Source: Hymenobacter sp. J193
GTDB taxonomy: Bacteria; Bacteroidota; Bacteroidia; Cytophagales; Hymenobacteraceae
Direction of reading: 5' to 3'
DNA: 64,000 bases
Assembly (NCBI RefSeq): GCF_024700075.1
Contig: NZ_JAJONE010000001.1
Span: 124,001-188,000 of the forward strand
In this document: positions 15,781 through 58,714 of the stretch, piece after piece
How positions within the stretch are numbered: the first letter of the stretch is position 1
Layout of the letters: each line of letters begins with the position of its first letter
The notes under the pieces: model-generated
Seen by the model: the letters and a program-made list of their open reading frames with translations, nothing else
The model's database searches: none
What the model was told of the DNA's origin: nothing
Translations under genes and position numbers: made by a program

Positions 15781-15865
15781 GTCATCCTGAGCGCAGCGAA
15801 GGACCTTATCACGTCAGAACAAGTCGTTCGAACGTGATAAGGTCCTTCGCTGCGCTCAGGATGAC
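15781..15865. repeat. Perfect 34-bp-arm palindromic repeat (GTCATCCTGAGCG family)
   Basis: The left arm GTCATCCTGAGCGCAGCGAA... (15781-15814) is an exact reverse complement of 15832-15865, with a 17-nt spacer. It lies between the sensor kinase gene and the efflux operon. It would form a very stable RNA hairpin and could attenuate read-through. Related in its outer bases to the repeats at 1399-1502 and 30632-30723. Confidence 0.9.
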
Positions 15866-25635: not shown

Positions 25636-25796
25636 CAATTAGTAATTCAGAATTAGCAATGAATAACTCTGACGAGGACACGTATTCCAGGCCCAACTAT
25701 TTATCAGCCCGATAATCTGACAAGTAGAAGCAGTTGACAAAAGCGCATGACTGCTTAAATAATTACTCATTCCTAATTATCAATTACTAATTAACC
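25636..25796. repeat. Inverted short-tandem-repeat cassette H1 (AATTAGT type)
   Basis: Left array CAATTAGTAATTCAGAATTA... (25636-25669); right array (25758-25796) reads on the other strand AATTAGTAATTGATAATTAG.... Arms are built from degenerate 7-bp words (AATTAGT, AATTGAT and similar). The ~90-nt centre is not AT-rich and encodes nothing. On the minus strand the cassette supplies the last Asn codon and TAG of the kinase gene and ends 2 nt before the receiver gene's ATG. Confidence 0.85.
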
Positions 25797-28540: not shown

Positions 28541-28668
28541 GACAATTAGTAATGAACAATCAGTAATTAATATCTCAGGAGAGGCCGAAGCCAATCAGGA
28601 GCACGAAAGCCCTGCGTTACAAACGAATACCTAATTCCTCATTACTGATTATCAATTACTAATTCTTC
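28541..28668. repeat. Inverted short-tandem-repeat cassette H2 (AATTAGT type)
   Basis: Left array CAATTAGTAATGAACAATCA... (28543-28574); right array (28630-28668) reads on the other strand AATTAGTAATTGATAATCAG.... The centre (~55 nt) is GC-richer. The cassette fills the gap between the small membrane protein gene, whose final Asn codon and TAG it supplies, and the kinase ATG. Confidence 0.85.
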
Positions 28669-40419: not shown

Positions 40420-40522
40420 TTAATTAGTAATTAATAATTAACAATTAGTAATGAGCTGATTCAGTGGGCCTTGAGGCTGAAACACCGAATTCTTCATTAT
40501 TAATTACCAATTATTAATTCCC
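40420..40522. repeat. Inverted short-tandem-repeat cassette H3 (AATTAGT type)
   Basis: Left array AATTAGTAATTAATAATTA... with AATTAGT AATTAAT AATTAAC AATTAGT as successive 7-bp words (40422-40449). The right array (40487-40522) reads on the other strand GGGAATTAATAATTGGTAAT.... The centre is ~35 nt. The right array encodes the last residues (ELIIGN) and TAA of tsaE, and the left array stops 6 nt from the ald ATG. Confidence 0.85.
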
Positions 40523-46485: not shown

Positions 46486-48051
46486 TTACCCCCGCGGGCT
46501 CAGCGTCACGTACGGGATGATGCACTCTTCCAGGGAGATACCGCCGTGCTGGAACGTGTCCTTGTAGTAGTTCACGTAGTAGTTGTAGTTGTTGGGGTAG
46601 GCGAAGAAATAGTCGCCGACGGTGAAGACGTAGGCCGTGCTCACGTTTTCGCGGGGCAGGAATACGCGCTCCGGCTTGCGTACGGTGTACACGTCGCGGG
46701 AGTCGTCGAAGCCCAGGTTTTTGCCGTGCTTGTAGCGCAGGTTGGTGTTGGTGTTCCGGTCGCCCACAATCTTGTAGGGGCGGCGCACCCGAATGGTGCC
46801 GTGGTCGGTGGTGATGATGAGCTTGCCTTTCTTCTCGGCAATAACCTGCAACATCTCATACAAGGGCGAGTGCAGAAACCACGAGCGGGTGATGCTGCGG
46901 TACGCCGACTCATCGGCCGCCAGCTCCCGGATCATGGCCATGTCAGTGCGGGCGTGGGAAAGCATGTCCACGAAGTTGTAGACGATGACGTTGCACTTGT
47001 AGTTGTTGTGCAGGTTGCTCATTTTGCCCAGCAGGTCCTTGCCCGCCTGCAGGTTGGTCACCTTGTTGTAGCTGAACTTGTGCTTCTGGTTGGCCTTCTG
47101 GAACATGATTTCCATGAACTCGGCCTCGTGTAGGTTCTTGCCCTCGTCGTCGTCGTCCCACACCCACAGGTTGGGGTATTTCTTCTGAATTTCGCCCGGC
47201 ATCATGCCCGAGAAGATGGCGTTGCGGGCGTAGGCCGTGGTAGTGGGCAGAATGCTGTAGTAGGTTTCCTCGGAGTCGACAGTGAACAGCTCGGCAATGA
47301 TGGGCTCGAGCACCTTCCACTGGTCGTAGCGCAGGTTGTCGATAAGCACGAAGTACACGGGCTGGTCGCCGGTTTCCTTGAGCAGCGGGAATACGCGCTT
47401 CTGGAACAGCTCGTGCGACATGAGCGGAGCGTCCTTGTCGTCGCCGTTCACCCAGTCCTCGTAGTTCTCGGTGATGAAGCGGCCGAAGTACGTGTTGGCC
47501 TCATCCTTCTGCATATTGAAGACCTCAGCCATGCTCTTGCCTTCCGTCTCGTTGATTTCCAGCTCCCAGTACACCAGCTTCTTGTACACGTCGGCCCACT
47601 CTGAGGGCGAGAGGCGGTCGGAAAGCTGCATGCCCAGCTGGCGGAAGTCGCGCTGGTAGCCGGAGTTGGTGGCTTCGCTGATGAGGCGCTTATTGTCGAG
47701 CACCCGCTTCACCGACAGCAGAATCTGGTTGGGGTTAACGGGCTTGATGAGGTAATCGGCAATTTTGGCGCCGATGGCCGACTCCATGATGTGCTCTTCC
47801 TCGCTCTTGGTAATCATGACCACGGGCACGGTGGGCCGCACGGCTTTGATTTCGGTGAGGGTTTCGAGGCCCGTAAGGCCGGGCATGTTCTCGTCCAGAA
47901 ATACGATATCGTAGGTTTTCTCCTGGATTTCCTCAATGGCATCGGCGCCGGAGTTGACGCCCGTCACGTCGTAGCCTTTTTCCTTGAGAAAGAGAATGTG
48001 GGGTTTCAGCAGGTCGATTTCGTCGTCGGCCCAGAGAATGGAGTATTGCAT
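46486..48051 (-). CDS. porX: PorX-type response regulator with PglZ (alkaline-phosphatase-like) domain
   Basis: 521-aa regulator. The receiver domain (1-120) has ILWADDEIDLL, phospho-Asp in DIVFLDENMPGLTG, VMITKS and YLIKPVNPNQIL. A helical connector follows, then a PglZ domain (~205-515) with DNLRYDQWK, ILPTTTAYARNAIFSGMMPG (metal-binding Thr), NFVDMLSHARTDM and IITTDHGTIRVRRPY (Asp-His ligands). This is the architecture of PorX, which controls type IX secretion genes in Bacteroidota and cleaves oligonucleotides in reported homologues. Length matches. ATG 48051 is chosen; an in-frame extension upstream reads through the GGGGTCTT repeats. The whole upstream region is the repeat-bounded element H6. 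Confidence 0.95.
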   Translation of the reverse strand: MQYSILWADDEIDLLKPHILFLKEKGYDVTGVNSGADAIEEIQEKTYDIVFLDENMPGLTGLETLTEIKAVRPTVPVVMITKSEEEHIMESAIGAKIADYLIKPVNPNQILLSVKRVLDNKRLISEATNSGYQRDFRQLGMQLSDRLSPSEWADVYKKLVYWELEINETEGKSMAEVFNMQKDEANTYFGRFITENYEDWVNGDDKDAPLMSHELFQKRVFPLLKETGDQPVYFVLIDNLRYDQWKVLEPIIAELFTVDSEETYYSILPTTTAYARNAIFSGMMPGEIQKKYPNLWVWDDDDEGKNLHEAEFMEIMFQKANQKHKFSYNKVTNLQAGKDLLGKMSNLHNNYKCNVIVYNFVDMLSHARTDMAMIRELAADESAYRSITRSWFLHSPLYEMLQVIAEKKGKLIITTDHGTIRVRRPYKIVGDRNTNTNLRYKHGKNLGFDDSRDVYTVRKPERVFLPRENVSTAYVFTVGDYFFAYPNNYNYYVNYYKDTFQHGGISLEECIIPYVTLSPRG

Positions 48052-48054
48052 AGG

Positions 48055-48722
48055 TTGGGGTCTTGGGGTCTTGGGGTCTTGGGGTCTTGGTTTTTGGCCA
48101 TTTCCATTTTTCCCAAGCTGTTTTAAATGCAGCAATGCGTAGGGCAAAGCAACTAGCTTTACCGTGAATCCGGTAAATAAGATACATTCTTGCATCGTCG
48201 TTTTTCACTAACCCCCGTTTCGGGAGCCGTATGTTCGATTTTCGCAAGCTGCGTATCTGGCAGAAAGGGCAGGAACTGACGTTGACTATCTACCGCATCA
48301 CGCGCCATTTTCCCAAAGAAGAATTGTTTGGCCTGACCAGTCAGATGCGGCGCGCGGCGGCTTCGGTGCCCCACAACATTGCCAAAGGCTGCGGGCGACA
48401 ATCAGCGCCCGACCTGCTGCGCTTTCTGACTATTGCCATGGGCTCGGCCAGCGAGCTGGCTTCACAGTTGCTCCTGGCCCAAGGGCTGGAGTATCTATCA
48501 ACGGAAACCGCTGAACAATTATTGTCCGACACCGAAAAGCTGCGCCGTATGCTGACTGCCTACTATCAGATGGTAAAAGCCAACCTACCCGACCAGCGCG
48601 CCACGTAGTTTTACCAGGATTAACGCCTTTCCTTTACATTCCTTCAGCAATAACTGCTCGCTTCGGGCTTGGGTCGTTGGACAATCAAAGACCCTAAGAC
48701 CCCAAGACCCTAAGACCCCAAT
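48055..48722. mobile_element. Inverted-repeat element H6 (GGGGTCTT octamers) carrying a four-helix-bundle gene
   Basis: Left end TTGGGGTCTT followed by three more GGGGTCTT octamers and GGTTTTTGGCCA (48055-48100). The right end reads on the other strand TTGGGGTCTTAGGGTCTT, then GGGGTCTTAGGGTCTT and TGATTGTCC. The ~36-nt arms match at nearly every position. Inside is a single gene (48231-48608). The element fills the entire space between the divergent ATGs of porX and the HD gene. No transposase gene. The architecture matches 23S rRNA intervening sequences (stem-forming ends plus IVP gene), but it lies outside rRNA. Confidence 0.75.
48231..48608 (+). CDS. Four-helix-bundle protein of the 23S intervening-sequence (IVP/S23) family
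   Basis: 125-aa protein. FDFRKLRIWQKGQELTLTIYRITRHFP, LFGLTSQMRRAAASVPHNIAKGCGR, LLRFLTIAMGSASELASQLLLAQGL and LLSDTEKLRRMLTAYYQMVK give the four amphipathic helices of the TIGR02436/S23-type family, with the family hallmark QMRRAAxSVPxNIAxG. Proteins of this family are encoded in 23S rRNA intervening sequences and are structurally related to the Avd protein of diversity-generating retroelements. The biochemical role is unknown. This copy sits inside element H6 between inverted octamer arrays. Confidence 0.92.
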   Translation: MFDFRKLRIWQKGQELTLTIYRITRHFPKEELFGLTSQMRRAAASVPHNIAKGCGRQSAPDLLRFLTIAMGSASELASQLLLAQGLEYLSTETAEQLLSDTEKLRRMLTAYYQMVKANLPDQRAT

Positions 48723-49950
48723 GAACAAAAAGAAAATCTTCAACGACCCTGTGTACGGCTTCGTGACCATTCCCACGGAGCTGTTGTTTGACCTGATTGA
48801 GCATTCGTACTTTCAGCGGCTGCGGCGCATTCAGCAGCTGGGGCTTACCATGTTCGTGTACCCAGGGGCCCTGCACACGCGCTTTCACCACGCGCTGGGT
48901 GCCATGCACCTGATGACACTGGCGTTGCGCACGCTCAAGGATAAAGGGGTGAAGATTTCGGCCAAGGAAGGCGAGGCCGCCATGGCGGCCATTCTGCTCC
49001 ACGACATCGGCCACGGCCCCCTCTCCCACGCCCTGGAGCGCAGCATTTTCCACGATGTGCACCACGAGCAGGTGAGTTTGCACCTGATGAAGAAGCTGAA
49101 CGCGCAGTTTGGCGGGGCCCTGGCATTGGCCATCGAAATCTTCCAGGGCACCTACCACCGGCCGTTTTTCCACCAGCTGGTGAGCAGCCAGCTGGATATG
49201 GACCGGCTCGACTACCTCAACCGGGACTCGTTCTACACCGGCGTGCAGGAAGGCCGCCCCGGCGCCGACCGCCTCATCAAGATGCTCACGGTAGTGGACG
49301 AGCGGCTGGTGCTGGAGGAAAAAGCGGTGTACAGCATAGAGAACTTTCTGGTGAGCCGCCGCCTGATGTACTGGCAGGTGTACCTGCATAAAACCGTCAC
49401 GTCGGCCGAACAGATGGTGATTCGGATTATGCAGCGCGCCCGGGATTTGGTGCGGGCTGGCGTGGCGGTGCCGGCTTCGCCCAACCTGCACTTTTTCCTT
49501 TCGCGCAACGTCACCCAGCAGGAGTTTGAGGCCGACGACCAGATCCTGCGCCGCTTCACCCGCCTCGACGATACCGACGTGTGGGGAGCGGTAAAGCTTT
49601 GGGCCGACCACCCCGACAAAGTGCTGAACTACCTGGCTCAAAGTATGCTCGACCGGCACCTGTTCAAGATTCAGCTGCAGGCCGAGCCGTTTGAGGAAGA
49701 CTTCCAGCTGGGCATCGTGGAGCTGATTGCCGAGCACTTCCAGCTGCCGCCCGCCGATGCCGCCCAGCTGATGCTTACCGGGCGCATCAGCAACAACGCC
49801 TACGATGCCGACGGCCAGGACACCATCGACGTGCTGACCAAGCGCGGCCGGGTAGTGAACGTGGCCGAAGCCTCCGACCTGCCCAACATCAAAGCCCTGG
49901 GCCAGCGCGTGGAAAAGCACTACATCTGCTACCCCAAGGAGATACTATGA
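48721..49950 (+). CDS. HD-domain phosphohydrolase (dNTPase/SAMHD1-like)
   Basis: 409-aa cytoplasmic metal-dependent hydrolase. HD-domain residues in order: LHTRFHHALGAMHLM (first His), ILLHDIGHGPLSHALE (His-Asp), and SSQLDMDRLDYLNRDSFYTG (final Asp). The start MNKKKIFNDPVYGFVTIPTELLFDLIEHSYFQRLRRIQQLG is typical of dGTPase-like HD proteins in Bacteroidota. Its ATG directly follows the last AAGACCCC repeat of H6, so its promoter and leader are provided by, or lie within, that element. lpxD follows downstream. Confidence 0.93.
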   Translation: MNKKKIFNDPVYGFVTIPTELLFDLIEHSYFQRLRRIQQLGLTMFVYPGALHTRFHHALGAMHLMTLALRTLKDKGVKISAKEGEAAMAAILLHDIGHGPLSHALERSIFHDVHHEQVSLHLMKKLNAQFGGALALAIEIFQGTYHRPFFHQLVSSQLDMDRLDYLNRDSFYTGVQEGRPGADRLIKMLTVVDERLVLEEKAVYSIENFLVSRRLMYWQVYLHKTVTSAEQMVIRIMQRARDLVRAGVAVPASPNLHFFLSRNVTQQEFEADDQILRRFTRLDDTDVWGAVKLWADHPDKVLNYLAQSMLDRHLFKIQLQAEPFEEDFQLGIVELIAEHFQLPPADAAQLMLTGRISNNAYDADGQDTIDVLTKRGRVVNVAEASDLPNIKALGQRVEKHYICYPKEIL

Positions 49951-49959
49951 GGTAGTGCT

Positions 49960-50038
49960 TAGTGCTTGGTGCCTAGTGCTTAGAACAGCGGCTTGCTTAT
50001 CCATGAACGACCTAAGCACCAAGCACCAAGCACTAAGC
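49960..50038. repeat. Inverted short-tandem-repeat cassette H7 (TAGTGCT type)
   Basis: Left array TAGTGCT TAGTGCT TGGTGCC TAGTGCT TAG; the right array reads on the other strand GTGCTTAGTGCTTGGTGC and TTGGTGCTTAGG. The centre is ~28 nt. It occupies the gap between the HD gene and lpxD, ending just before the lpxD promoter. Confidence 0.85.
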
Positions 50039-50050
50039 ACGATTATTCCC

Positions 50051-50058
50051 TACTTTTG
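50051..50058 (+). promoter_or_regulatory. -7 promoter element TACTTTTG for lpxD
   Basis: TAnnTTTG match, 7 nt before the ATG, giving an almost leaderless transcript. It lies directly after cassette H7. Confidence 0.55.
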
Positions 50059-50065
50059 TCCTCCT

Positions 50066-51106
50066 ATGGAATTTACGGTAGCCCAGGTAGCGGAAGTATT
50101 GCACGGCACAGTCGAAGGCGACGCCGCGCTACGCATTGATCGGCTGGCAAAAATCGAAGAGGCCCAGGCGGGCGCCATTACGTTTCTGGCCAACCCCAAG
50201 TACGAGCCCCAGCTTTATACCACCCACGCCACGGCCATAATTGTGAGCCGCACGCTGGAGCTGCGCCAGCCGGTGGCGGCCACGCTTATCCGCGTAGACG
50301 ACCCTTACTCCTGCTTTACGGCTTTGCTGGAATTCTACCAGCAGAATGCCCGCACTGGCCGGCGCGGGGTGGAAGAGCCCGCCTTTCTGGGCCCCGGCTC
50401 CACCATCGGCGACAACCACTTCCGCGGTGCCTTCTCCTACATCGGGGAGAGCTGCGTGATTGGCCGCGACGTGCTGATTTTCCCCAACGCCACCATCGGC
50501 GACCGGTGCCGCATCGGCGACGGTACCGTGATTTACGCCGGCGCCAAGATTTACGCCGATACGGTGATTGGGGCCCGCTGCGTGGTGCACGCCGGCGCTG
50601 TTATCGGCTCCGATGGGTTCGGCTTTGCCCCCCAGCCTGATGGCTCCTACCGCCCCATTCCGCAGATTGGCAACGTGGTGCTGGAAGACAACGTGAGCAT
50701 CGGCGCCAATGCCACCATCGACTGCGCGACGCTGGGCTCCACCATCATCCGGGAAGGCAGCAAAATCGATAACCTGGTGCAGATTGCCCACAACGTGGAA
50801 ATCGGGCGTCACACCGTAGTAGCTTCGCAAACCGGCATTTCGGGCTCCACCAAAATCGGGGACTTCTGCGTGCTGGCCGGGCAGGCCGGGCTGGCCGGAC
50901 ACCTCACGCTGGCGAACCGCACCACCGTCACGGCCCAGTCGGGCGTGGGCAAGTCCATCAAGGAGGAAGGGGTATTGCTGCAAGGCTCCCCAGCCTTCGC
51001 CCTGCGCGACAGTCTGCGGGCCAACGCCATCTTCCGGCACCTGCCCGAACTGGAGCGCCGCGTCACCGCGCTGGAGCGCAACCAAACCGAACAGGAAAAG
51101 CCCTAG
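50066..51106 (+). CDS. lpxD: UDP-3-O-(3-hydroxyacyl)glucosamine N-acyltransferase LpxD
   Basis: 346-aa enzyme adding the second acyl chain in lipid A synthesis. The N-terminal uridine-binding domain (1-100) is MEFTVAQVAEVLHGTVEGD ... DAALRIDRLAKIEEAQAGAITFLANPKY. A left-handed beta-helix of hexapeptide repeats covers ~110-310 (IGRDVLIFPNATIGDRCRIGDG; GSDGFGFAPQPDGSYRPIPQIGNVVLEDNVSIGANATID), with catalytic His in LVQIAHNVEIGRHTVV. ATG 50066 is chosen from the domain start and the -7 element. It leads the lpxD / lpxC-fabZ / lpxA cluster. Confidence 0.97.
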   Translation: MEFTVAQVAEVLHGTVEGDAALRIDRLAKIEEAQAGAITFLANPKYEPQLYTTHATAIIVSRTLELRQPVAATLIRVDDPYSCFTALLEFYQQNARTGRRGVEEPAFLGPGSTIGDNHFRGAFSYIGESCVIGRDVLIFPNATIGDRCRIGDGTVIYAGAKIYADTVIGARCVVHAGAVIGSDGFGFAPQPDGSYRPIPQIGNVVLEDNVSIGANATIDCATLGSTIIREGSKIDNLVQIAHNVEIGRHTVVASQTGISGSTKIGDFCVLAGQAGLAGHLTLANRTTVTAQSGVGKSIKEEGVLLQGSPAFALRDSLRANAIFRHLPELERRVTALERNQTEQEKP

Positions 51107-51123
51107 CTTTGCAGCCTATTTTG

Positions 51124-51215
51124 AGTTGTCAGTTGCCCGTTGTCCGTTGTCAGGCCCACCCCATTTCCGTGGCCCTTGCACCTGTCAACCGGCAACGGGC
51201 AACGGATAACTGACC
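51124..51215. repeat. Inverted short-tandem-repeat cassette H8 (GTTGTCA/GTTGCCC type)
   Basis: Left array GTTGTCA GTTGCCC GTTGTCC GTTGTCA (51125-51152); the right array reads on the other strand GTCAGTTATCCGTTGCCC and GTTGCCGGTTGACAGG. The centre is ~28 nt. It fills the lpxD-lpxC gap up to 2 nt before the lpxC ATG. Confidence 0.85.
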
Positions 51216-51217
51216 AA

Positions 51218-52612
51218 ATGAACGACAAGCAACATACCATCAAGGCTCCGGTGACGGTAAGCGGCATTGGGCTGCACACCGGCGTGGTGGCCACTATGAC
51301 TTTCTGCCCGGCCCCCATCAACCACGGCTACAAGTTTCAGCGCATCGATTTGCCTGGTCAGCCCCTCGTGGACGCCGACGTGGACAACGTGGTGGATTTA
51401 AGCCGCGGCACCACCATCGAGCAGAACGGGGCCCGCGTAAATACCGTGGAGCACACGCTGGCCGCGCTGGTAGGGTTGCAGATTGACAACGTGCTGATTC
51501 AGCTGGATGGCCCCGAGCCGCCCATTATGGATGGCAGCAGCTACGAGTTCATCAAGCCCCTGCAGGAAGTAGGCCTGGAAGAACAGAACGCCCTGCGCAA
51601 CTACTTCGAAATTCCCGACGAGGTGCGGTTCGTGGACAATGCCCGCGCCGTGGAAATTGCCGGCCTGCCCCTGAACGACTACCGCGTGACGGTGATGGTG
51701 GATTACAACTCCCCGGTGCTGGGCTCCCAGCACGCATCCCTCACCGACATAACCCAGTTTGCCTCCGAAATTGCTTCCTCACGCACCTTCTGCTTTCTGC
51801 ACGAGCTGGAGGCTCTCTACAAGCAAAACCTCATCAAGGGCGGCGACCTGAGCAACGCCATTGTGGTGGTGGACCGCGTAGTGAGCGAGGATGAGCTGAG
51901 CGAGCTGGCTACCATGCTGGGCAAGCCCAAAGTGGCCGTAAAAAAGGAAGGCATCCTCAACAACGTGGACCTGCGCCACAAAAACGAGCCCGCCCGCCAC
52001 AAGCTCCTCGACCTGATTGGGGACCTGGCCCTGGTAGGCCGCCCGCTGAAGGGCCAGATCCTGGCCGCCCGGCCCGGCCACGCCGCCAACGTGGCCTTTG
52101 CCAAGAAAATCAAGAAGAAGATGCTGGAGGCCAACACCTCCCCGGTGCCCACCTACGACCCTTCGCGGGAGCCGGTGATGGACATCAACCGCATCAGCCA
52201 GATTCTGCCGCACCGCTACCCTTTCCTGCTCATCGACAAGATTATTCACCTCGACGCCAACACGGTGACGGGCGTGAAGAACGTGACGATGAACGAGCCA
52301 TTCTTTCCTGGTCACTTTCCCGGCAACCCCATTATGCCCGGCGTGCTACAGATTGAAGCTATGGCCCAGACCGGCGGCATTCTGGTACTCAACACCGTGC
52401 CTGACCCGGAGAATTACTGGACGTACTTTATGGGCATTGAGAGTTGCCGCTTCCGTCGCAAAGTATTGCCCGGCGACACCATCATTTTCAAGTGCCATTT
52501 GTTAGCACCTATCAAGCGGGGCATTGCCAAGATGAGCGGCAAGGCTTTCGTGAATGGCAAAGTGGTGATGGAGGCCGAAATGACCGCCAGCATCGTCCGC
52601 AAAGACGCCTGA
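51218..52612 (+). CDS. lpxC-fabZ: LpxC-FabZ fusion: UDP-3-O-acyl-GlcNAc deacetylase / 3-hydroxyacyl-ACP dehydratase
   Basis: 464-aa bifunctional protein typical of Bacteroidota. Residues 1-305 are LpxC, the committed step of lipid A synthesis, with zinc ligands in ARVNTVEHTLAALVG (His) and RHKLLDLIGDLALVG (His, Asp), and the catalytic His in RPGHAANVAF. Residues ~320-464 are FabZ: QILPHRYPFLLIDKI, FFPGHFPGNPIMPGVLQIEAMAQTGG with catalytic His, and CHLLAPIKRGIAKMSGKAFVNGKVVMEAEM. ATG 51218 begins MNDKQHTIKAPVTVSGIGLHTG, a normal LpxC start. An upstream in-frame extension is encoded by the repeat cassette and rejected. Confidence 0.98.
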   Translation: MNDKQHTIKAPVTVSGIGLHTGVVATMTFCPAPINHGYKFQRIDLPGQPLVDADVDNVVDLSRGTTIEQNGARVNTVEHTLAALVGLQIDNVLIQLDGPEPPIMDGSSYEFIKPLQEVGLEEQNALRNYFEIPDEVRFVDNARAVEIAGLPLNDYRVTVMVDYNSPVLGSQHASLTDITQFASEIASSRTFCFLHELEALYKQNLIKGGDLSNAIVVVDRVVSEDELSELATMLGKPKVAVKKEGILNNVDLRHKNEPARHKLLDLIGDLALVGRPLKGQILAARPGHAANVAFAKKIKKKMLEANTSPVPTYDPSREPVMDINRISQILPHRYPFLLIDKIIHLDANTVTGVKNVTMNEPFFPGHFPGNPIMPGVLQIEAMAQTGGILVLNTVPDPENYWTYFMGIESCRFRRKVLPGDTIIFKCHLLAPIKRGIAKMSGKAFVNGKVVMEAEMTASIVRKDA

Positions 52613-52616
52613 TTTT

Positions 52617-52720
52617 GAATTAGTAATTAATAATTGAGAATGAATAATTCTCGGACGAAAAGCGCGTTTCGCTTCGTTGAGACAATTCTTAATTATTAAT
52701 TCTTAATTACTAATTACTCC
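52617..52720. repeat. Inverted short-tandem-repeat cassette H4 (AATTAGT type)
   Basis: Left array AATTAGTAATTAATAATTGA (52618-52637) continuing AATGAATAATTC; the right array (52684-52717) reads on the other strand AGTAATTAGTAATTAAGAAT and TAATAATTAAG. The centre (TCGGACG...) is GC-rich with its own small hairpin. It fills the gap from 4 nt after the lpxC-fabZ stop to 8 nt before the lpxA ATG. Confidence 0.85.
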
Positions 52721-52728
52721 TTCCCCGA

Positions 52729-53529
52729 ATGAACCAGCCGCTCGCCTATATCCACCCCGAGGCCATTATTGCGCAGAACGTCGTAGTAGAGCCGTTTACC
52801 ACGATTGACAAGGACGTGGAAATCGGGGAAGGCACCTGGATTGGCCCCAACGTGACCATTATGGCCGGGGCCCGTATTGGCAAAAACTGCAAGGTTTTCC
52901 CCGGCGCGGTGATTTCGGCCATGCCCCAGGACCTGAAGTTTGCGGGCGAAAAAACCACTGCCCACATCGGCGACAACACCGTGATTCGGGAGTGCGTGAC
53001 GATAAACCGCGGGACCATAGACAAGCTCAAGACCGTGGTAGGCGCCAACTGCCTGATTATGGCCTACGTACATGTGGCTCACGACTGTGTAATCGGCAAC
53101 AACTGCATCCTGGCCAACACGGTGCAGGTAGCCGGCCACGTCGAAATCGGCGACTACGCCATTATTGGCGGCTCCTCGTCCATCCATCAGTTCGTGCACA
53201 TCGGCGCCCACGCCATGATTTCGGGCGGCTCGTTGATTCGTAAGGACGTGCCCCCGTTCGTGAAGGCCGGCCGCGAGCCGCTCAGCTACGCGGGCATCAA
53301 TTCCATCGGGCTGCGCCGCCGGGGCTTCTCCGACCAGAAGATTGCCGAAATCCAGCAGCTCTACCGCCTGCTATTCCTGAGCGGGCTGAACAACAATGCC
53401 GCCCTCGATCAGATTGAGCTGGAGTTGGCCCCCTCGCCCGAGCGCGACGAAGTAGTGAACTTCATCCGCAACTCCGGCCGGGGCGTTATCAAAGGCTACT
53501 CGCGCAACGGCAACGGCAGCGGAGAGTAA
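52729..53529 (+). CDS. lpxA: UDP-N-acetylglucosamine acyltransferase LpxA
   Basis: 266-aa first enzyme of lipid A synthesis. Hexapeptide repeats run from the start (LAYIHPEAIIAQNVVVEPFTTI; VEIGEGTWIGPNVTIMAGARIG) to ~190, with catalytic His in CLIMAYVHVAHDCVIGNNC and substrate-specificity residues around SSIHQFVHIGAHAMISGGS. The C-terminal helical domain begins LSYAGINSIGLRRRGFSDQKIAEIQQLYRLLF. Length is normal. It comes last in the lpx cluster, with repeat cassettes separating all three genes. Confidence 0.98.
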   Translation: MNQPLAYIHPEAIIAQNVVVEPFTTIDKDVEIGEGTWIGPNVTIMAGARIGKNCKVFPGAVISAMPQDLKFAGEKTTAHIGDNTVIRECVTINRGTIDKLKTVVGANCLIMAYVHVAHDCVIGNNCILANTVQVAGHVEIGDYAIIGGSSSIHQFVHIGAHAMISGGSLIRKDVPPFVKAGREPLSYAGINSIGLRRRGFSDQKIAEIQQLYRLLFLSGLNNNAALDQIELELAPSPERDEVVNFIRNSGRGVIKGYSRNGNGSGE

Positions 53530-54448: not shown

Positions 54449-54808
54449 ATGAGACAATACGACAACCTCGACGACGATTTCCTCGATGATGACGACGAGC
54501 TGGATAGCTTCGCCAAAACCGGCGGCAGCAAAACCCGCGGCTCCTCCGAGGACCAGCTTTCGGCCAAGTACGCCGACTATCTGATGTGGCGCGACACGGG
54601 CTCCTCCCACGACGAGGCCCTGGACCTGGCCAGTATGACCGAAGAAGAGTACACCACCGCCGAAGCGGCCGAAGACCCCGACAGCAGCCGCGGCTTCAGT
54701 TCCTTGGACGACGAGGACGAAGATGCCTTTGACGACCTCGACGATGACGACAGCTTCGGCAGCCGCAGCAGCAAAAGCAAAGGCCGATACGACGATGACG
54801 ACTACTAG
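54449..54808 (+). CDS. Very acidic low-complexity protein, unknown function
   Basis: 119-aa protein with Asp/Glu runs at both ends (LDDDFLDDDDELDSF; LDDEDEDAFDDLDDDDSFGS) and a short middle that could fold (SEDQLSAKYADYLMWRDTGSSHDEALDLA). No signal peptide or membrane helix. Probably a disordered cytoplasmic protein. It has its own consensus promoter and a strong terminator, supporting a real gene. Its TAG stop is the first three bases of the (TAGAGCT)8 array. Confidence 0.75.
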   Translation: MRQYDNLDDDFLDDDDELDSFAKTGGSKTRGSSEDQLSAKYADYLMWRDTGSSHDEALDLASMTEEEYTTAEAAEDPDSSRGFSSLDDEDEDAFDDLDDDDSFGSRSSKSKGRYDDDDY

Positions 54809-54861
54809 AGCTTAGAGCTTAGAGCTTAGAGCTTAGAGCTTAGAGCTTAGAGCTTAGAGCT
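54806..54861. repeat. Perfect tandem array (TAGAGCT) x8
   Basis: Eight exact copies of a 7-bp unit, starting in the stop codon of the acidic gene and ending 12 nt before a terminator stem. No inverted partner follows. Same unit length as the intergenic inverted cassettes, so it looks like a one-sided member of that class. Perfect units suggest recent expansion or homogenisation. Confidence 0.95.
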
Positions 54862-54873
54862 TAGAATGTATCA

Positions 54874-57316: not shown

Positions 57317-58714
57317 ATGGCACGAGTGGAAATGGTGATGCCCAAAATGGGCGAAAGCATTATGGAAGGCACCGTCCTGAAATGGCTCAAACAAGTAGGT
57401 GAAGCCATTGAGCAGGACGAGTCGGTGCTGGAAGTAGCTACCGACAAGGTAGATACCGAGGTACCCGCCATTCATGCCGGCGTGCTGCAGGAAATTCTGG
57501 TGCAGGAAGGCCAGGTAGTGGCCGTGGGCGCACCTATTGCCATCATCGAAACCGACGCGGCCAGCGCCGGCGCAGCGGCACCCACCGCCGCGGCTCCTGC
57601 TGCCGAACCAGCCGCCAGCAACGGCGCTGCCACGACTCCCGAGGTTCCTTATCTGCCCGAGCCGCACGACCCGCAGGCCAATCAGCAAACCGCTGTAGCC
57701 CAGCCCGGCCGCTTCTACTCCCCACTGGTGCTCAGCATTGCCCGCGAAGAAGGCATTTCTATGACGGACCTCGAGTGCCTGCCCGGCACCGGCTCCGAGG
57801 GCCGCGTCACCAAGAAAGACATCCTCGACTACGTAGCCGGCGGCAAAGAGCCCCTGGCGGCAGCCCCCGCACCCGCGGCAGCTACCGCAACTGCTCCTGC
57901 CGCCACTCCGTCGCCCGCCCCGCAAGCGCCCCCAGCTGCAGCCCAAGTCCCCAAGTCCCCAAGTCCCCAAGTCCCCACGAGCAAACCCGCGCCTTCGGTA
58001 AGCGGCGGACAGGAGCTGGTGGAAATGGACCGGATGCGCAAGATGATTGCCCAACGCATGGTGGACTCCAAGCGCATTTCGCCCCACGTGACGAGCTTCG
58101 TGGAAGCCGACGTGACCGAAATCGTGAACTGGCGCAACAAGCACAAGGATGCCTACAAAAAGCGCGAGGGCGAAAACCTCACCTTCACGCCCATCTTCGT
58201 GCAGGCCATTGCCCGCGCCATCCAGGACTTCCCGATGATCAACGTGTCGATTGATGGGGACTACATCATCAAGAAGCGCGACATCAACGTGGGCGTGGCC
58301 GTGGCGCTGCCCTCGGGCAACCTCATCGTGCCAGTGATTCACAACGCCGACCAGCTGAACCTGAACGGCCTGACCAAGCGCGTAAACGACCTGGCCGCCC
58401 GGGCCCGGGCCAATAAGCTCAAGCCCGAAGACCTGGAAGGCGGGACGTATACCCTCTCCAACGTGGGCTCTTTCGGCAACGTGATGGGCACGCCCATCAT
58501 CATGCAGCCGCAGGTGGCCATCATGGCCGTGGGCGCCATTAAGAAGAAGCCGGCCGTGATTGAAACGCCTCAGGGTGACCTGATTGGCATCCGTCACTTC
58601 ATGTTCCTCTCGCACTCCTACGACCACCGCGTGGTGGATGGTTCGCTGGGTGGCATGTTCGTTCGCAAAGTGGCCGACTACCTCGAGCAGTTCGACCCCA
58701 ACACGGCCATCTAG
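57317..58714 (+). CDS. 2-oxo acid dehydrogenase E2 (dihydrolipoyl acyltransferase)
   Basis: 465-aa core enzyme of a 2-oxo acid dehydrogenase complex. One lipoyl domain (1-78) has the lipoylated Lys44 in VATDKVDTEVPA. After an Ala-rich linker comes the peripheral-subunit-binding domain (~132-170: PLVLSIAREEGISMTDLECLPGTGSEGRVTKKDIL), then a second linker containing the octamer-encoded VPKSPSPQVPTS stretch, and the catalytic domain (~235-465) ending SHSYDHRVVDGSLGG with the catalytic His-Asp. Branched-chain or 2-oxoglutarate type cannot be decided. No E1 or E3 genes are adjacent. A terminator follows. Confidence 0.95.
   Translation: MARVEMVMPKMGESIMEGTVLKWLKQVGEAIEQDESVLEVATDKVDTEVPAIHAGVLQEILVQEGQVVAVGAPIAIIETDAASAGAAAPTAAAPAAEPAASNGAATTPEVPYLPEPHDPQANQQTAVAQPGRFYSPLVLSIAREEGISMTDLECLPGTGSEGRVTKKDILDYVAGGKEPLAAAPAPAAATATAPAATPSPAPQAPPAAAQVPKSPSPQVPTSKPAPSVSGGQELVEMDRMRKMIAQRMVDSKRISPHVTSFVEADVTEIVNWRNKHKDAYKKREGENLTFTPIFVQAIARAIQDFPMINVSIDGDYIIKKRDINVGVAVALPSGNLIVPVIHNADQLNLNGLTKRVNDLAARARANKLKPEDLEGGTYTLSNVGSFGNVMGTPIIMQPQVAIMAVGAIKKKPAVIETPQGDLIGIRHFMFLSHSYDHRVVDGSLGGMFVRKVADYLEQFDPNTAI
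57945..57976 (+). repeat. Tandem octamer array (AAGTCCCC) x4 inside the E2 linker
   Basis: Four perfect AAGTCCCC units at 57945-57976. Since 8 is not a multiple of 3, the encoded peptide repeats every 24 nt and reads through three frames as Gln-Val-Pro-Lys-Ser-Pro-Ser-Pro. It sits in a Pro/Ala-rich linker where insertion is tolerated. One base different from the AAGACCCC octamer of element H6. Confidence 0.9.

Follow-up and report, generated by a model that had tools for sequence, protein, structure and literature searches.

Inverted short-word arrays around an S23 gene of Hymenobacter sp. J193 point to a candidate intergenic element

Introduction

The window analysed here, a 64,000-nt stretch of the Hymenobacter sp. 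J193 genome (NZ_JAJONE010000001.1), raises the question of why a gene for an S23/IVP four-helix-bundle protein should lie between inverted arrays of a short word, and whether this arrangement is peculiar to one locus or recurs around such genes. A sequence-only reading of the window had likened it to the intervening sequences (IVSs) of 23S rRNA, which RNase III excises without religation. In an IVS, according to the part of PMC4990558 available to us, a small loop is replaced by a stem with an S23 open reading frame (ORF), for example in Coxiella and Leptospira; the same part reports an S23 pentamer and records that a mobility role for the IVS ORF was once suggested.

S23 proteins have solved structures and no assigned function, and heptamer repeats occur in several phyla without a known cause. 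The STRR of cyanobacteria are also made of intergenic tandem 7-nt words. Heptamer arrays described in the available portions of two papers include GGGAATC in Xanthomonas and GGGGA(C/T)T in Nostoc, with 70 convergent inverted pairs in X. campestris (PMC4692102), and TAACTGA in Beggiatoaceae, cyanobacteria and five Bacteroidetes (PMC4679880). A text search found the term S23 absent from the texts of both, and no link of S23 genes to word arrays was found in the open-access literature, preprints not being covered.

Results

The element between porX and the HD gene

The inverted GGGGTCTT arrays and the S23 gene that they enclose, the sole gene of the element, occupy the entire porX–HD intergenic region (Table 1), as the sequence-only reading had described. 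The arms of 34 nt lie 599 nt apart and score 29.0, a value implying 32 complementary positions of 34. Directly before the ATG of both divergent genes stands (AAGACCCC)n, the common leader that had been claimed, with the last base of the right array being the A of the HD start codon. The 16-mer had six matches at one mismatch or fewer and none in 100 shuffles. The S23 ORF matched PF05635 (23S_rRNA_IVP) with an E-value of 3.6e-38 and 130.5 bits (curated cut-off 33.8) and TIGR02436 with 1e-36 and 125.4 bits (cut-off 24), and the left neighbour was identified as PorX (NF052313, 832 bits). The solved S23 relatives 2GSC and 2RLD contain five chains per entry. An Rfam scan of window positions 47500–52800 gave no rRNA around the element and sub-threshold hairpin-like matches only. 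The likeness to an IVS therefore extends to the complementary-end stem with an S23 ORF in its loop; having no rRNA location, the element is not an IVS as defined.

Table 1. The porX–HD element, its neighbours and the gene-less cassettes, in window positions
Feature	Position	Strand	Description
Left arm	48055..48090	+	Tandem TTGGGGTC x 4.5, perfect copies, G-rich reading inward
Right arm	48688..48721	+	AAGACCCTAAGACCCC x 2.1 (two perfect 16-nt units); inverse of left arm
S23/IVP four-helix-bundle protein gene	48231..48608	+	125 aa; in the element loop
porX, neighbour	46486..48051	-	ATG 3 nt from left arm
HD-domain protein gene, neighbour	48721..49950	+	ATG abuts right arm
Gene-less cassette	25637..25792	.	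AATTAGT word; matches arms of the genome's own S23 locus L005
Gene-less cassette	28544..28664	.	AATTAGT word
Gene-less cassette	40421..40513	.	AATTAGT word
Gene-less cassette	49955..50040	.	TTAGTGC; different word at the site in sister genome G034
Gene-less cassette	51124..51211	.	TTGTCAG type; GTTTCTG words here in the sister genome
Gene-less cassette	52618..52718	.	AATTAGT word; same arms, different loop in the sister genome

Arms around S23 genes in the genus and beyond

Arms were scored by local alignment of the 400 nt upstream of a gene with the reverse complement of the 400 nt downstream, usually with a threshold of 17. Two nulls were used: cross-pairing of upstream and downstream DNA from different loci, and 20 dinucleotide shuffles, made for each locus from its own downstream DNA. 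Excluded before counting were L116 and L264, at contig ends, and weak or broken genus matches (G040:C1:1448329, G004:C1:4338515/4338693, G011:C1:1934530/1934658 and G024:C1:622824).

Seven TIGR02436 matches were found in the genome of the window, which has 5.66 Mb in 7 contigs. Reading of the flanks placed all seven between inverted short-word arrays, each with a different word, of the types GGGGTCTT, AGAGCTTAG, GGTTTTT, GTAACAC/GTGACAG, AATTAGT, TGAAAGG and AATGTGC. Throughout the genus, 69 of 75 S23 loci reached 17 and six fell under it, compared with 29 of 30 GxxExxY loci and 1 of 30 loci of the HD core-gene control. Cross-pairs reached the threshold in 67/600 cases for S23 (11%), 137/600 for GxxExxY and 172/600 for HD, figures that make cross-pairing a harsh null in the genus. 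S23 loci without clear arms include L054, L056, L070, L092, L114 and L133.

Among the S23 loci of Bacteroidota, taken as best-scoring matches and not as random draws, 48 of 69 reached 16 (null 79/1000, 8%) and 41 of 69 reached 17 (null 49/1000). The named loci, likewise the best-scoring 80 of at least 583 and not random draws, left 78 usable entries once L303 and L315, at contig ends, were set aside; 24 of 36 in Bacteroidota (L361, from Ignavibacteriae, being counted there) and 32 of 42 in other phyla reached 17, with cross-pair nulls of 5.2% and 5.5%, respectively. Within this best 80 of at least 583, arms were found in Planctomycetota, Acidobacteriota, Chloroflexota, Verrucomicrobiota, Nitrospirota, Actinomycetota, Pseudomonadota, Omnitrophica and Elusimicrobia; Rfam scans covering 40 of the 43 non-Bacteroidota loci detected no rRNA. 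S23 loci exceeded all 20 dinucleotide shuffles in 72/75 cases in the genus, 50/69 in the phylum and 31/39 in other phyla (from the best 80 of at least 583, with 39 of the 42 loci taken and L288, L290 and L334 left out); the controls did so in 28/30 (GxxExxY), 2/8 (Y1 transposase) and 5/30 (HD) cases. The enrichment of inverted word arrays that the sequence-only reading had predicted for S23 genes was thus strong at all three levels.

In 864 kb of two genomes, 39 of 713 mechanically called genes reached 17. Word-type arms, defined by a self-similarity above 0.6 at a lag of 6–9 nt and with one simple triplet-run case set aside, were present in three S23 rows (3/3 S23); the other word-armed rows were the two orthologues of a 2.7-kb gene lying between two separate gene-less cassettes. 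None of the 204 other genes of up to 600 nt in the 864 kb had word-type arms, and 11 reached 17 via other inverted repeats.

S23 matches were also held by 24 plasmid records, with arms in four of the six examined. On viral contigs 30 of 40 S23 loci reached 17, a raw count without a null that includes several near-duplicates, and no word arrays were found in the viral S23 lineage L392–L394 and L402. On a Pseudanabaena plasmid (L404, NZ_CP112875.1) an armed S23 gene lies between cas6 and cas4. The GxxExxY (TIGR04256) genes L165–L194, including L170 from the window's own genome, also lie between inverted arrays, with longer arms.

Format of the arms

Comparison of the arms across loci shows a shared format (a 7-nt period, a length of about 35 nt, mostly G-rich reading inward, RTNAGTW) and not a shared sequence. 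Pooled self-similarity was 0.52–0.64 at lag 7 and 0.52–0.61 at lag 14, against 0.22–0.38 at all remaining lags to 18. For loci with a score of at least 17, the best lag was 7 in 48/69 loci of the genus, 32/40 of the phylum and 25/29 of other phyla, and 8 in 19, 8 and 1 loci, with median arm lengths of 36, 37.5 and 31 nt; named loci were again the best 80 of at least 583, and the other-phyla set comprised 35 of the 42 non-Bacteroidota loci (without L287, L290, L293, L298, L301, L342 and L360, mostly with no clear arms), so its counts are conditional on arms. In the same sets, from the best 80 of at least 583, G exceeded C in the left arm in 64/69, 37/40 and 23/29 loci, compared with 35 of 90 non-word inverted repeats. 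The octamer word noted by the sequence-only reading is accordingly true of the window element and a local variant, 7 being the commonest word length over S23 loci. GxxExxY arms had best lags of 9, 10 or 12 and a median length of 56 nt.

When the words of 105 period-7 loci were aligned by rotation, RTNAGTW emerged (central A 0.70, G 0.84) with an information of 2.83 bits, compared with a mean of 2.07 and a maximum of 2.14 in 40 trials of a column-permuted null. About five heptads per arm alongside a pentameric protein is a suggestive coincidence of numbers, and nothing more.

Gene and arms as one unit

From 41 HD matches we obtained 30 oriented porX–HD regions, of which two had both the gene and the arrays and 28 (223–714 nt) had neither; in these 28, the S23 profile gave no match and no word-array pair was found, with L145 holding one weak non-array inverted repeat. 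Two outcomes had been named beforehand as speaking against the sequence-only reading, namely a lack of enrichment around other such genes and orthologous porX–HD regions with the gene but without the arrays. No such region was found among the 30, and with the enrichment described above both checks came out in favour of that interpretation and support it.

A TTAGTGC S23 element of G034, the sister of the window's genome (G000), is wholly missing in G000, where 66 array-free nt stand at the site. At porX–HD and at two further sites, called site 1 and site 2, the flank bins closest to the element begin 240 nt from the gene match and are 0.91–0.98 identical between G034 and G000; the S23 proteins are 0.61, 0.75 and 0.69 identical, respectively, and their words or word variants differ. 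The G034 proteins are closer to same-word alleles of other species (0.80–0.82 at site 1 and 0.90–0.91 at site 2), relative to which the nearest flank bins show identities of 0.69–0.90 and 0.85–0.93; the downstream bin of site 2, at 0.91–0.93 to the donors and 0.91 to the sister, does not tell the two apart. Alignment identity breaks, as judged by eye, at the outer arm ends, beside start or stop codons, and empty sites differ too much from filled ones to reveal a target-site duplication. Compared site by site, the gene and its arms form a unit: at fixed intergenic sites both are there or both are missing, and where one differs so does the other. From these comparisons, gain, loss and exchange seem to affect gene and arrays jointly, as would be expected of a single, previously undescribed mobile unit.

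Words and proteins

Among 92 armed loci, forming 4023 pairs at non-orthologous sites, strong word matches occurred in 0–1.4% of pairs with an S23 identity below 50%, in 12% at 50–60% and in 25% at 60–80%, and a Mantel comparison of word and protein gave 0/500. By this comparison arm word and S23 protein co-diversify, a pattern to be expected from joint inheritance and from recognition alike. The S23 clades follow the sites, 14 site groups requiring 13 changes on the tree against a shuffled mean of 40; at site groups 3 and 12, one site is occupied by different S23 lineages.

The stem pairs of same-word orthologs comprised 16 compensated, 159 broken, 72 gained, 74 half-changed and 978 unchanged cases, a distribution suggesting that arms are newly made and decay afterwards, and not that selection maintains them; maintenance of the stem by compensatory change was not supported. 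Avoidance of shared words within a genome was not supported either (3/93 pairs within and 37/2247 between genomes).

A GGGGTCTT-type word also stands beside the porX start codon in the S23-free regions L139–L142, L145, L149, L151, L153 and L154, at the place taken in the window by the left arm of the element. The arm of the porX element ranked first of 70 arms in 10 of the 28 S23-free porX leaders, nine with a shuffle P of at most 0.01. The element may go to matching words, or its word may have been recruited from the site.

Gene-less cassettes

Gene-less cassettes with 7/8-nt words numbered 23 in 464 kb of G000 and 19 in 400 kb of G034, a close relative. Same-genome S23 arms were matched at a score of at least 18 by 13 and 12 of them, respectively (permuted-word null 3.9% and 1.6%), and any S23 arm of the genus by 19 and 18 (null 8.7% and 6.6%); at a score of 13, the genome's own S23 set explained 15/23 and 13/19 cassettes and the sister set 14 and 12. 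Five orthologous gene-less sites, including those at 49955 and 51124 of the window, have different words or another repeat type in G000 and G034.

Across 41 genomes, the three that have a GTATTGAGTATTGAGA S23 gave the highest counts of this word (20, 18 and 12; next 7), with the reversed control reaching 10 in one genome. TTAGTGC was frequent in G035 (69; one S23 locus there was left out of the analysis), G012 (67), G002 (46) and G020 (31), in the last of which no S23 was found. It was rare in G034 (4) and G037 (1), although both have a TTAGTGC S23; G008, which also has one, had 85. Genomes can thus have many hairpins of a word and no S23 of the same word (TTAGTGC in G012, G002 and G020), and the remaining two words counted had a mixed relation to same-genome S23. 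That gene-less words depend strictly on an S23 in the same genome was not upheld; agreement was best for GTATTGAGTATTGAGA and was lacking for TTAGTGC. The proposal that the cassettes are reduced relatives of the gene-bearing element agrees with the words that they have in common with S23 arms; these words track a same-genome S23 only in part.

Discussion

Arms at most S23 loci, their presence or absence as a unit with the gene and the co-diversification of word and protein together imply that the S23 genes seen are, for the most part, components of an intergenic element in which no transposase is recognisable. The feature in the window is, in our estimation, rather probably one copy of such a widespread element, formed by two inverted short-word arrays with one S23 gene in the loop. 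We also lean towards an explanation in which the S23 pentamer of this unit recognises its own word array and host enzymes copy the hairpin. The S23 homopentamer would recognise the array as a single-strand hairpin (RNA or ssDNA), perhaps with one heptad per subunit, and would bring it to host replication or repair enzymes; these would copy it to a second intergenic site, inserting it there or overwriting what stands there, with a preference for sites with an existing hairpin or a matching word. Gene-less cassettes would then be reduced copies of the S23 element, and the 23S rRNA IVS would be what results when such a stem comes to lie in a helix of rRNA. It is our inference that S23 binds to the arms and is what drives the copying; sequence comparisons revealed neither a catalytic domain in the element nor transposition, and cassettes without a cognate S23, the scarcity of compensatory arm changes and the presence of GxxExxY genes in similar arrays argue against a simple trans model. 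S23 loci at which no arms were found, the lack of word avoidance within genomes and the downstream flank of site 2, equally close to sister and donors, also count against the explanation.

Were S23 a host regulator that binds hairpins of its own word in transcripts and controls the stability or translation of a gene set and of itself, the cassettes would be binding sites and the words would change as the regulon is rewired. Arms abutting start or stop codons and S23 clades keeping to the same site across species would agree with this, as would the regulatory role proposed, in the available part of PMC4679880, for heptamer arrays just upstream of start codons. We consider such regulation unlikely, because the single-site alleles conflict with the sister relation of G000 and G034, orthologous gene-less sites have different words between conserved flanks, and compensatory change in stems is scarce. 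Polymerase slippage and template switching could instead make and mirror the arrays, with S23 and its neighbours as passengers and alleles swapped between species by short-tract homologous recombination. Single long tandem runs (window 54806–54865), S23 clades bound to sites at which alleles swap, and the nearest downstream bin of site 2, equally similar to donors (0.91–0.93) and sister (0.91), would all be expected of such a process. It leaves unexplained why a single gene family sits in the loop (3/3 against 0/204), and does so in many phyla, and why S23 arms and gene-less cassettes have a common vocabulary; moreover, flanks are sister-like on either side of site 1 and, at site 2, upstream, and groups 3 and 12 have different S23 lineages at one site. 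We rate it as rather improbable.

Quite improbable, in our judgement, is that the hairpins are moved by known machinery acting in trans (a reverse transcriptase or a RAYT/Y1 transposase) with S23 as an accessory, as Avd is to a retroelement reverse transcriptase, even though a hairpin population and the master gene that it flanks are reminiscent of REPINs and RAYTs (as set out in the part of PMC3733652 available), PF05635 proteins and Avd are given as homologous in the accessible part of PMC10053308, and two of eight Y1 loci exceed their own shuffles for an inverted pair. RVT_1 was present in 10 and Y1_Tnp in 27 of the 41 genus genomes, drafts in which enzymes of a past spread may since have been lost, and the draft genome of G034 has five S23 genes and many cassettes but neither RVT_1 nor Y1_Tnp. 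A profile search gave no Y1_Tnp match in the draft genomes G034, G005, G022 or G037. Neither enzyme was upheld as a required partner, cassette-rich G034 being without both.

Recognition by S23 with copying by host enzymes, the explanation that we prefer, can be extended further, although we put this wider form forward tentatively and as falling somewhat short of probable. S23 genes may define a bacteria-wide class of mobile or homing elements with ends of free sequence but fixed format, namely inverted arrays of about five heptads that read G-rich inward and follow RTNAGTW, a pentameric non-catalytic protein reading the array word by word and host enzymes copying hairpins into or over others; many heptamer repeats would be their gene-less progeny and the rRNA IVS their best-known outpost. 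S23 proteins and heptamer repeats would be linked by a testable partner relation of one protein to one word. If true, this would give an origin for rRNA-fragmenting inserts, make S23 a candidate ring protein for recognition word by word, and add a kind of element by which intergenic DNA beside start and stop codons is rewritten.

Relation to known systems

MITEs and TIR transposons have inverted ends and occur in gene-bearing and gene-less forms, as does the S23 element, whose ends, however, vary in sequence between elements and which has no transposase. Like the IVS as presented in the available part of PMC4990558, which replaces a small loop, the S23 element is patchily distributed and carries its ORF in the loop of a complementary-end stem; unlike it, the window element is intergenic, its arms are word arrays and it has many gene-less relatives. 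REPINs and RAYTs, to judge from the accessible part of PMC3733652, similarly combine a flanked master gene with short repeats that stand as inverted pairs dispersed through intergenic DNA, but the S23 element lacks a Y1 transposase and has heptad arrays of variable word in place of one GTAG-tagged palindrome. Heptamer array repeats resemble most S23 arms in being intergenic tandem 7-nt words (the window's own word has 8 nt), whereas those in the available portions of PMC4692102 and PMC4679880 are linked to no gene. As for the relation to Avd raised by the sequence-only reading, a homologous four-helix-bundle protein according to the accessible part of PMC10053308, the Avd model matched the S23 ORF weakly (1.2e-4, 22 bits) and below its cut-off of 80, and, in contrast to diversity-generating retroelements, the S23 element has no reverse transcriptase gene.

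Other repeats in and near the window

Two long one-sided tandem arrays in the window, TAGAGCT x 8.6 at 54806–54865 and CCCAAGTC x 4.5 at 57942–57977, for which no inverted partner was found, are perhaps expanded single arms. An inverted-repeat family of the GTCATGCTGAGCGCAGCGAAGCATCTC type occurs at 15781–15865 of the window and in many places in L195–L214, sometimes nested in word cassettes or occupying an orthologous cassette site. Just downstream of a same-word S23 element, L007 holds at 1747–1838 a hairpin with 40-nt arms that are 100% complementary and a 12-nt loop.
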